Origin: Planctomycetota bacterium
Lineage (GTDB): Bacteria; Planctomycetota; Planctomycetia; Gemmatales; Gemmataceae
Direction: 5' to 3'
NCBI GenBank assembly: GCA_003671255.1
Contig: QWPF01000005.1
Coordinates: 8,770 to 65,950 of the forward strand
DNA length: 57,181 nucleotides
Below, piece by piece: positions 44,787 to 48,737 of this stretch. The notes beneath the pieces are model-generated. The model made no database searches and was not told where the DNA came from. It saw only the letters and a program-made list of their open reading frames with translations. How positions within the stretch are numbered: position 1 is the stretch's first letter; every line of letters begins with the position of its first letter. The translations under genes were made by a program, and so were the position numbers.

Positions 44787-45185
44787 CTAATTCTTTTCAG
44801 GTAACTGAGCTTCATAACCTATTTTCTTGATAGCTTTTGCAAGCGTATCTGCTTCCATACTTGCCTTGGAACCACCAACTCCAGCTCGAACAATGGCAAC
44901 ATACCAAAAGCGAAGCCTATCTCTTTGAGGCAACTCCGCTGATTTCAAACCAAGAGTTTCAACATCATCTGGATTCCAACGATTCTTTTTTAATTTCTCT
45001 GAAACTTGCTTGAATGTCAAACCATTGGAAAGAACTTGCCCACTTTCATCGGTAATCCGATAAGCCACCAATAAATTGAGCAAGCCCAAGAATCTTCCTA
45101 AGTGAAGAGACTTGGTTTTTATAGCTAATAAAAATTGGTCAATAGAATCCATGAACTTAATCAATTCAGCAAAATCACCTGTCAC
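44787..45185 (-). CDS. Small hypothetical protein, 132 residues
   Basis: No family recognised. It starts with GTG 45185 or ATG 45152 (MDSIDQFL). The sequence is mixed helical and charged (ITDESGQVLSNGLTFKQVSEKLKKNRWNPDDVETLGL..LRFWYVAIVRAGVGGSKASMEADTLAKAIKKIG), with no signal peptide or membrane segment. Composition is like that of its neighbours. It sits 115 bases upstream of the TPR gene on the same strand, without evident coupling. Confidence 0.5.
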   Translation of the reverse strand: MTGDFAELIKFMDSIDQFLLAIKTKSLHLGRFLGLLNLLVAYRITDESGQVLSNGLTFKQVSEKLKKNRWNPDDVETLGLKSAELPQRDRLRFWYVAIVRAGVGGSKASMEADTLAKAIKKIGYEAQLPEKN

Positions 45186-45524
45186 AAATCAACACCCGAC
45201 CGAATCGGAATAGCAAAGCAATTTGCAACTGTTTGTAAGCCTAGCATAAGACCACAATCAGAAATATAGGGAATATTGGCAATTTGACCGCTTTGTACTA
45301 AATATGCCGATTTTAACAGAATCCCCCATGTTTTCATTCCTTTTTAAAGCAAAAATAATCCCTATTTTGATGTTTTGTCAACATATTTAGTCAATTAGAT
45401 ACAACTTTTGTCAGCTGAACAATCCAAGCCCACGCTGTTTTTTTCCCTGCTAAGCTTCTCAAACTACTTTTTTGCTTTACATTAGACGCAGGATTAATGA
45501 TTTTTCTTTACATTGGAGGCCAGG
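45186..45524. other. AT-rich divergent intergenic region
   Basis: No gene, tRNA or clear repeat family is seen. A CTTTACATT..GCAGG-like segment occurs twice near 45475 and 45507, the second copy supplying the GGAGG ribosome site of the next gene. Promoters for both flanking genes are expected here. Confidence 0.5.
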
Positions 45525-46511
45525 ATGGTCAAAGCAAAAAATAAGAGTTCTTCATTTCTTTATGAACCAAGGACTCCTTTTCCAAAACTTCCCGAGGTCC
45601 GCTTTCACGATACACCCGAACGAAGTTTGTACCATCTTTTCGATACCGCAAAAGAAAGCATCTATGGCATTAATCTTGCTAAAAACTGCCCCTTTCAACC
45701 TTCCCACCCACTATTAAGCATGAATTTTGAAATGCTTGATTACAGTTTGCCCAGGCAACCAGAAAGAAACGCTAGCTGGGAAACAAAATTCTGCAAAAAG
45801 TTACCAGATTCAATCCTAATCGGACAAAACTACGAGCCTTTTGCGCCCTTTGAAAAAACCAGAACTCTTGCAATAGCATTGGGGAAATTCTTGGTAAATC
45901 AAGGTTTCAAAATTTGGTTTCAAACCCGGACTATGCTTGACCTAGAACTCTTCGAAACTTTGCTTTATTTAGAAGAAAAAGTGCAACTGCTCCTACCTTT
46001 TCACACCTTAAACGATCGAATCGCAAAATTGATCGAGCCTTTTTCTCCTGCTCCAACTTCTAGAATTAAACAATTGGAAACACTAAAGAACTTAGGCATA
46101 CCCTTCGAGGTTTCCCTAGATTCGCTTATCCCCGGTTTAAATGACACAAAAGCAAACCTTTTCCCCTTACTTGAATCTCTCGCAGATAAAGGCGTAAAAA
46201 GAACCACTATTTCTTTCATGAACCTTCAATCTGAGACTCTTTCTCATCCAATCAAACAAAATTCTCAGTTTTTTTCCTTATGGGAGGCAGGAGTTGACTT
46301 CGAATTCCCAGATCTTCGCACCAGAAAATTACTTAACTCTCACTATCGCAAAGCAAAATACTCGGAAATAATGACTTGGGGCAAGCAAGTAGGTATCCAA
46401 ATAGTAGTCGATGGTATCGCAAACCCCGACTTCGCACGAAGGTCGCCCTCCGAAGCTTATAGTGTTACTTCAAATCTTAAAGAACGGTATTTGGCACTTA
46501 CCAATGTATAA
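45525..46511 (+). CDS. SPL-like radical SAM family protein lacking two of three Fe-S cysteines
   Basis: ATG 45525 follows GGAGG at 6-7 nt. The 328-residue protein follows the layout of SPL-family radical SAM proteins (spore photolyase-like): INLAKNC near the N-terminus, then PDSILIGQNYEPFAPFEKTRTLAIALGKFL, GFKIWFQTRTMLDLELFETL, EPFSPAPTSRIKQLETLKNLGIPFEVSLDSLIPGLNDT and a helical end. In the family the first segment is CxxxCxxC binding a 4Fe-4S cluster. Here it is C55-P-F-Q-P59-S-H-P62, so two of the three cysteines are Pro. The enzyme cannot bind a normal radical SAM cluster. Whether it binds another cofactor or acts as a scaffold is unknown. Confidence 0.7.
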   Translation: MVKAKNKSSSFLYEPRTPFPKLPEVRFHDTPERSLYHLFDTAKESIYGINLAKNCPFQPSHPLLSMNFEMLDYSLPRQPERNASWETKFCKKLPDSILIGQNYEPFAPFEKTRTLAIALGKFLVNQGFKIWFQTRTMLDLELFETLLYLEEKVQLLLPFHTLNDRIAKLIEPFSPAPTSRIKQLETLKNLGIPFEVSLDSLIPGLNDTKANLFPLLESLADKGVKRTTISFMNLQSETLSHPIKQNSQFFSLWEAGVDFEFPDLRTRKLLNSHYRKAKYSEIMTWGKQVGIQIVVDGIANPDFARRSPSEAYSVTSNLKERYLALTNV

Positions 46512-46613: not shown

Positions 46614-48737
46614 ATGGCAACAGGCTTCAACAAGATAGACATGGCAAAAACATATGAGCCAGCTAACACTCTTTATTCAAGAACTTTCATAGCTTTATTG
46701 GTGGCTCAGTTTCTTGCAGCTTTTAATGATCAAGCAATTCATGCATCAGCAATGTTTTTTGCAATTAACAAATCGACTTTAAACGAGGCGCAGGCAATTT
46801 CCCTGATGCCCATACTTTTTTATGCGCCTTGGGCTATTTTTTGCACCTTGGCAGGCTACCTTGCAGATCGCTACAGCAAGCAAAGCTCTTTGATTTTTTG
46901 GAAAATCGCTGAGGTTCTCATTACCGCAATTGCGCTACTTGGTTTCTGGCTAGGTACTCAGGATTATGATTCTGGACCATGGATAGTGCTTTCAACCGTA
47001 TTTCTTATGGGTATGCATAGTGCTTTTTTTGTACCTGCAAAATATGGAATCATGCCTGAAATCCTAAAATCGCACATGCTTTCCAAAGGCAACGGGCTGC
47101 TTGAATCACTTTCGTTTCTTGCGGTAATCATGGGGACCGTTTTTGGTGGAGTTTTATCCTACCATTATAAAGGACAGGAATATTGGATTGGGATCATCTT
47201 GTGCATACTTGCAATGATTGGGGCTATCGCAAGTTTTTGGATTGAAAAAATTCCTGCTGCAAACCCGAGCAGAAAGTTTCCTCCCTACCTCTACCAACCC
47301 GTTTACGCCAATCTTAAAGAAATGTTTCGTTCAAGGCCTCTAGCTATAGCTGTAATTGGTATCGCTTTTTTCACCTTCATTGTTGCATTTAGCAGAGCCA
47401 CTATTTACATGCATGGGGAATCACAATTGCCACGCTGGACTGAAGAAGAAACTAGTGTAATTGTTGGCATGGTTGCACTTGGGATTGGATTTGGCAGCCC
47501 ATTAGTTGGATACCTATCAGGCGGAAAAATAGAAATGGGCCTAATTCCCATTGGAATTACCGGGATGATCATTGGGTTGATAGGTGAAGCCCTGCTTCTA
47601 GACCATCTTAACTTTCTAATTGCTTTCATTATTACCACAGGCTTTTTTACAGGATTTTATGTAGTTCCACTTTTCACCCTGCTGCAAGATCGCGCCCCAA
47701 AATCAAGCAAAGGGGATGTCATAGCCACAAGCAATCTCATCAATGTCACTGGGGCAATTCTTGCATCTTTTTTATTCTTTGTGATTGTAAAGGTGGCACA
47801 TTTGTCTGGTGTTTGCCCAGAGATCCATCTAACCAAAATAACTGAGGGCAAACTTGAGTCCATCCAACTCGACCATGGTAGACCGATCAGTTACGGGCTT
47901 AGCTTTACCAATGCTGATGGTAACAAGACGGAAACATCTTTTAAAACCTCTCCAAAAACTGCCATCGACAACTTTTCCGAAGATGTGGTTATTGGTGCTG
48001 TAATCGTTGAAAAATCTTATCGGCTTGGTGGAGTGGAACACCGAAGATTGTATGAACAAAACGAAAGCCAAACACCAATGTTCGACAATCATTTTCTACC
48101 CAGATACCTTTTTCTTGTTGCGGCTTTTTTTACATTAGCCACCCTTGTTATTATAAGAATCCGCATGCCTGATCTTTTCTTGAGAACCATCCTATGGGGT
48201 TTCTTCTTTTCAAAATACAGTTTAAGAGCCCATGGTTTACACAATTTAAAAAGCCATGGCCCAGTCTTGATTGTTCATGAAGGAAACAGCCTTGAAGATA
48301 CCTATTTGATTCTTTCCGCAATTGACCGAACGCCAAGAAATCTTTTCAATGCAAAGCTCGACGCTGAAAACATCCCATCCTTTATCAATCGTTTGGCAAA
48401 AAAACACAGTCTGGCATGGTTGAATTCCAATGAATGCACCCCAGAGGAACTAAACCTGATTATTGCAAGAATCCGCAAAAACATTGGCAAACAGCATGCA
48501 ATATCACTGTCCTTGAATGGGCCTTGGATTCCTGGCATACTCGATTTGATCAACGAATTGAAAATCCCGGTGGTCCCTGTATTTATCTCACGGGCCCCGA
48601 ATCCAACAACCAAGGCAAGCAACATTGTCTACGTAAATTTTGGTAAAGAAATTAATTCAACAGTGGATCTGGAATCGTTGGCAATAGCCTGCAGGGAAAT
48701 TAAAGCCCCGGTTAACGGAGAGACTCCAGCGGTTTAA
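46614..48737 (+). CDS. MFS (LplT-like) transporter fused to a degenerate acyltransferase domain
   Basis: About 707 residues. The N-terminal about 420 residues are an MFS transporter of the LplT lysophospholipid type, with AAFNDQAIHASAMFF, LAGYLADRYSKQSSLIFWK, MGMHSAFFVPAKYGIMPEIL and FVPLFTLLQDRAPKSSKGDVIA-like segments. A polar insertion follows (about 420-500), then another membrane segment and a C-terminal domain resembling PlsC acyltransferases (GPVLIVHEGNSLEDTYLIL..GILDLINELKIPVVPVFIS). The catalytic NHxSxxD box reads EGNSLED, with Gly where the His should be. Inferred role: phospholipid transport across the inner membrane with a non-catalytic acyl-binding tail. It overlaps the convergent permease gene by 26 bases. 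Confidence 0.78.
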   Translation: MATGFNKIDMAKTYEPANTLYSRTFIALLVAQFLAAFNDQAIHASAMFFAINKSTLNEAQAISLMPILFYAPWAIFCTLAGYLADRYSKQSSLIFWKIAEVLITAIALLGFWLGTQDYDSGPWIVLSTVFLMGMHSAFFVPAKYGIMPEILKSHMLSKGNGLLESLSFLAVIMGTVFGGVLSYHYKGQEYWIGIILCILAMIGAIASFWIEKIPAANPSRKFPPYLYQPVYANLKEMFRSRPLAIAVIGIAFFTFIVAFSRATIYMHGESQLPRWTEEETSVIVGMVALGIGFGSPLVGYLSGGKIEMGLIPIGITGMIIGLIGEALLLDHLNFLIAFIITTGFFTGFYVVPLFTLLQDRAPKSSKGDVIATSNLINVTGAILASFLFFVIVKVAHLSGVCPEIHLTKITEGKLESIQLDHGRPISYGLSFTNADGNKTETSFKTSPKTAIDNFSEDVVIGAVIVEKSYRLGGVEHRRLYEQNESQTPMFDNHFLPRYLFLVAAFFTLATLVIIRIRMPDLFLRTILWGFFFSKYSLRAHGLHNLKSHGPVLIVHEGNSLEDTYLILSAIDRTPRNLFNAKLDAENIPSFINRLAKKHSLAWLNSNECTPEELNLIIARIRKNIGKQHAISLSLNGPWIPGILDLINELKIPVVPVFISRAPNPTTKASNIVYVNFGKEINSTVDLESLAIACREIKAPVNGETPAV

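Follow-up and report, generated by a model that had tools for sequence, protein, structure and literature searches.

What becomes of a radical SAM protein when the cysteines that would hold its iron-sulfur cluster are missing? The question is raised by a gene in a 57,181-nucleotide stretch of planctomycete DNA, the whole of which is called the window here. Radical SAM enzymes are defined as a superfamily by their [4Fe-4S] cluster, without which SAM cannot be cleaved to the 5'-deoxyadenosyl radical; scattered homologues that lack the motif do occur among them. A first, sequence-only reading of this gene described an intact frame of the layout of spore photoproduct lyase (SPL) with a broken CxxxCxxC motif, and raised the possibility of a family that has given up radical chemistry.

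The gene and its former cluster loop

The open reading frame occupies positions 45525–46508 of the forward strand, with the stop codon extending to 46511. Its 328 codons contain no internal stop and a GGAGG site lies 5 nt before the ATG (Table 1), in line with the intact frame and ribosome site noted in the sequence-only reading. Catalytic radical SAM enzymes bind their [4Fe-4S] cluster through CxxxCxxC; at this position the window protein reads K53-N-C55-P-F-Q-P59-S-H-P62 (C55 codon, 45687–45689), which bears out the described replacement by C55-x3-P59-x2-P62. The overlapping open frame across this stretch (45472–45717) does not contain CxxxCxxC, so a frameshift or alternative frame that would restore the cysteines is ruled out. 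Neither a second, intact copy nor a PA0069-type paralogue was found in the window genome.

Table 1. Features of the locus, in window coordinates
Feature	Position	Strand	Remarks
Ribosome-binding site, GGAGG	45515..45519	+	5 nt 5' of ATG; read from the sequence
SPL-like protein of predicted radical SAM fold, putatively cluster-free, 328 aa	45525..46511	+	Intact ORF; predicted radical SAM barrel with SPL as best structural match; genus dN/dS 0.17
Former cluster loop, residues 46–64 (IYGINLAKNCPFQPSHPLL)	45660..45716	+	Aligned to CxxxCxxC of intact relatives; genus pN/pS 0.137, most constrained region
T134-R135	45924..45929	+	Aligned with T-K/T-R of intact relatives; kept by the intact members and by most cysteine-less ones
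E171-P172 ... R180 block	46035..46064	+	Conserved through PA0069-type proteins
DSLIPGLND, residues 199–207	46119..46145	+	D207 invariant in the family
R275 ... Y279 ... N300-P301-D302	46347..46430	+	Subfamily C-terminal signature; absent from PA0069-type proteins
c5, divergent neighbour, 121-aa conserved protein	44790..45152	-	Almost universal in the family; serves only to anchor position
Co-directional MFS transporter with C-terminal extension	46617..48737	+	About 100 nt 3' of the gene; pairing also in two other genera

The gene is present in all seven genomes of the window's genus (g1). The other six copies, whose public records are planctomycete metagenome-assembled genomes, are 57–74% identical to the window copy, and stops or frameshifts occur in none of the seven. 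GINL(A/T)KNCPFQPxHP is kept in 7/7 copies and CxxxCxxC in 0/7, which rules out a private decay in one genome. A narrower contig search (A5) gave matches from the window's genus only. One contig carrying the genus gene (L132, CAMDHK010000001.1; 73% identical) is titled Candidatus Kuenenia stuttgartiensis; the genome collection places this contig (G005:C1) in the window's genus, and the organism in the title appears to be a misassignment.

Across the seven genus members no cysteine but C55 is invariant, so by sequence a three-cysteine [4Fe-4S] site is impossible elsewhere in the protein too. From the absence of the cluster site we infer that canonical radical chemistry has been lost and that the protein has ceased to work as a radical enzyme. 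Selection, measured in the window's genus, gives a median dN/dS of 0.17 over usable pairs (range 0.14–0.29). By region, pN/pS is lowest in the former cluster loop (0.137) and rises through the barrel (0.22) and the C-terminus (0.32) to the N-terminus (0.44). Most neighbouring genes are under tighter constraint (RluD 0.05, GlyRS 0.02), so the window protein is moderately constrained; the low dN/dS, together with a loop that is the most constrained region, argues against a decaying gene.

Relation to radical SAM proteins

Curated profiles recognize the window protein weakly. Pfam Radical_SAM (PF04055) matches residues 121–207 only, with E = 0.006 and 17.2 bits, below the curated cut-off of 29.5 bits; the intact relatives L081, L082, L094, and L122 score above this cut-off and L090 falls just under it (27.2 bits). 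The NCBIfam model for PA0069 (NF033668) matches with E = 3.2e-12 and 46.1 bits against a curated cut-off of 360, and that for Rv2578c with E = 7.6e-9, far under its own cut-off. The radical SAM relation is real, though the curated profiles are weak, and it extends to the predicted structure.

The model of the window protein (mean pLDDT 78, pTM 0.78) contains a partial TIM barrel of radical SAM type; its input alignment included intact radical SAM relatives, which favours finding such a barrel. Foldseek against the PDB places the spore photoproduct lyase 4fhc first (E = 2.7e-7). The top PDB entries by VIA-align (Z 15–16) are those of SPL, RlmN, and the pyruvate formate-lyase activating enzyme: the SPL entries reach Z 16.2–16.3 over 262–271 residues, RlmN ties with them and the activating enzyme comes next. 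The intact relative L081 is modelled better (pLDDT 86) and retrieves the same top structures. In the window model, pLDDT drops below 50 at residues 59–70, where the former cluster loop ends. The structure check proposed with the sequence-only reading thus came out in favour of a barrel that is predicted to persist, with SPL as the closest fold.

At the level of sequence, an intact-led family profile found no PDB match at E ≤ 0.01. A genus profile found none at E ≤ 1, and weak, chance-level matches only above that; a PA0069-type query did no better than the family profiles. As a result, no radical SAM sequence in the PDB could be aligned confidently, and neither residue-level transfer from SPL nor a mapping of SAM contacts could be made. 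The SPL-family layout first assigned to the protein holds for the fold. The block quoted with it, EP.(A/S)P..RI...LIPGLND, is common to PA0069- and Rv2578c-type proteins, from which the window protein is set apart in a subfamily of its own.

T134, R135, E171, R180, D207, R275, and N300-P301-D302 are invariant or nearly so across intact and most cysteine-less members of this subfamily. This conservation suggests that the barrel mouth may still bind the ancestral ligand or partner.

Distribution and number of the losses

The wider set of homologues was gathered by searching the family, the order, and the phylum with profiles and from recovered loci. In the gene tree, the window subfamily is separate from PA0069-type proteins with 100/100 support, and its hallmarks are R-x3-Y and NPD near the C-terminus; the members from the order form one clade (95/100 and 100/100). 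Of the 29 aligned members that lie outside the order, every one keeps CxxxCxxC. Inside the order it is intact in five genera, namely g23, g19, g13, g53, and g32, the last of family f2 (loci L081, L082, L083, L085, L090, and L091). Tree, NPD signature, and shared position make the window gene an ortholog of the intact members of this unnamed planctomycete SPL-like subfamily. Most intact members outside the order (L094–L123) also carry extra cysteines in a C-terminal CGCKNPDI. These are absent from the order members, even where CxxxCxxC is kept, which indicates that the C-terminal cysteines were lost first.

Beyond the window's genus, at least five further genera in two families (f1 and f2) are cysteine-less. 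One cysteine is left in g1 and in g29 (L080); none is left in g22 and g25 (loci L084/L087 and L086), and the whole loop is gone in g34 of f2 (L088/L089) and in g50 (L125). The loci of g15 (L092, L093, and L127) are tentative members, which match the profile only over its later two thirds and have also lost the EP..P block; no Pfam or NCBIfam model matched L092, the g15 locus tested. The homologue alignment called for at the outset thus finds the loss throughout the genus and well beyond it. The notion of a family that abandoned radical chemistry gains support from this spread, from purifying selection in the genus, and from the modelled fold.

This distribution also bears on the suggestion, made from the sequence alone, that the remaining residues bind a different cofactor. 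A mononuclear site in a non-radical metalloenzyme could be formed by C55 and H61, with H37 and D40 as possible further ligands. All four residues are invariant in the seven genus members, down to 57% identity, and no region is more constrained than the loop. The other cysteine-less genera do not share them: L080 keeps the cysteine only and none survives in the genera of L084 and L086, so such a site cannot explain the wider cysteine-less group, and the loop is not confidently modelled. We regard a metal or other cofactor in the genus loop as unlikely.

The number of losses depends on which tree is followed. In the rpoB+rpoC species tree, the cysteine-less f1 genera fall in one derived clade (support 95), which also takes in two genera where the searches recovered no copy of the gene. 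The f2 genus g34 stands apart as sister to the intact g32 (support 95). The species placement of the intact g23 genome (G028), with an odd rpoC row and no usable rpoB, is tentative. Since the species tree separates the f1 clade from g34, two independent losses of the cluster cysteines are implied; this is the simplest account, and a probable one. Descent from one old cluster-free paralogue, or from a copy spread horizontally, would instead unite the cysteine-less proteins, and gene trees built without the loop columns do place all cysteine-less rows together (85/95 and 65/79). These rows are long branches, however, and the support for their grouping is modest; a topology with g34 beside the intact g32 survives an AU test (p = 0.27). 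No genome of the order sample was seen to hold both intact and cysteine-less forms. With the species trees pointing the other way, one paralogue or transferred copy is possible but less likely.

Divergence after the loss is rapid. Cysteine-less copies from different genera are 17–47% identical at RpoB identities of 60–86%, whereas intact members of the order are 48–62% identical at 77–88%; between genera, evolution is much faster in the cysteine-less copies than in their intact relatives. Their lower identity at similar RpoB divergence indicates that constraint changed with the loss, yet did not vanish in the genus. In L125 (g50; positions 2–1659), the MFS neighbour is 73% identical to that of the window and the adjacent radical SAM-like protein only about 22%, an apparent pair with sharply unlike rates.

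Fast divergence between genera could also mean that the cysteine-less copies function weakly. At the extreme, catalysis was lost and the gene is drifting to disappearance, with the conservation in the genus merely residual. The patchy presence in the family and the progressive disappearance of the loop, with the EP..P block following in the tentative g15 members, fit such a course, as does the fast divergence. Slow decay sits poorly, in turn, with seven genus copies free of stops and frameshifts at a dN/dS of about 0.17, with a loop more constrained than the rest of the protein, and with persistence through a clade of several genera. We consider it improbable.

Genomic context, role, and known systems

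The radical SAM-like gene lies near c5, c2 (TPR), and rluD in g1, g29, g22, g25, and g15, with an ABC exporter where the contig reaches; in the intact g23 (L081) the subfamily gene is also near c5. The 121-aa c5 protein is uncharacterised, with no Pfam match, and occurs as one copy each in 88 of the 102 genomes of the order sample, most of them without the radical SAM-like gene. A specific functional partnership is thereby ruled out, and the proximity of a gene nearly universal in the family marks position.

An MFS gene follows the radical SAM-like gene in g1, g29, and g50 (107 nt in the last). In g34 (L088, 7181–8506), the cysteine-less gene comes directly after UppS- and CdsA-type genes and before a DnaK-related gene, and the same gene families surround it in L089. 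With an MFS gene encoding a C-terminal extension after it in those three genera and a CdsA-type cytidylyltransferase gene before it in g34, the protein might work with its neighbours in membrane lipid handling. This proposal seems remote: g22, g25, and g15 have no MFS neighbour, Pfam detects no acyltransferase domain in the downstream MFS-type gene, and two such contexts among many genes could arise by chance. No conserved operon, ligand, or partner pointing to a specific role was found.

The reading that we favour, and hold to be reasonably probable, is that the window gene descends by orthology from an SPL-like radical SAM enzyme, that its [4Fe-4S] site was lost while the barrel stayed, and that its product took on a non-radical role, probably in binding or as a structural element. 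The remodelled loop would close the emptied cluster pocket while the barrel mouth, judging from conservation only, may still hold the ancestral ligand or partner. The present protein would then act in binding, in regulation, or as a scaffold, and if it is an enzyme at all, as a non-radical one. Because the fold appears to be kept and selection is maintained in the genus, the cysteine-less proteins very likely do a different, non-radical job. The broader claim, that a radical SAM barrel turned at least twice into a cluster-free family within one order, the emptied pocket becoming a new conserved site with a selected non-radical function, we judge to be evenly balanced.

The graded series within one order, from the intact motif through one cysteine and none to the absence of the loop, makes it possible to test directly what such a barrel can do without its cofactor, in which order its parts are lost, and by how much evolution speeds up afterwards. 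For annotation, the lesson is that a match to the barrel is no ground for naming a radical enzyme when the motif is missing. In the titles, abstracts, and term counts of the open-access literature searched, no direct precedent for a cluster-less radical SAM family appears.

Among known systems, spore photoproduct lyase (SplB; PDB 4fhc, 4fhg, and 4rh0) is the best structural match of both the cysteine-less model (Z 16 over ~265 residues) and the intact relative. The window model has its fold, but the protein is only ~9% identical, lacks the catalytic cluster cysteines of CxxxCxxC, and has no profile-level sequence match to SPL chains. The nearest named sequence families are the PA0069 and Rv2578c radical SAM proteins (NCBIfam NF033668 and NF038135), which share the T-K/R, EP..(A/S)P..R, and PGL(N/T)D blocks. 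The window protein differs from them in its score (46 of 360 bits), its separate clade (100/100), the absence of CxxxCxxC, and the presence of R-x3-Y and NPD, which PA0069-type proteins lack. The unnamed intact planctomycete proteins (L081–L083, L085, L090, L091, and L094–L123) share the subfamily of the window protein, with a full-length profile match that includes the C-terminal NPD and, in L081, c5 nearby. All of them keep the CxxxCxxC that the window protein lacks, and those outside the order mostly add the cysteines of CGCKNPDI.
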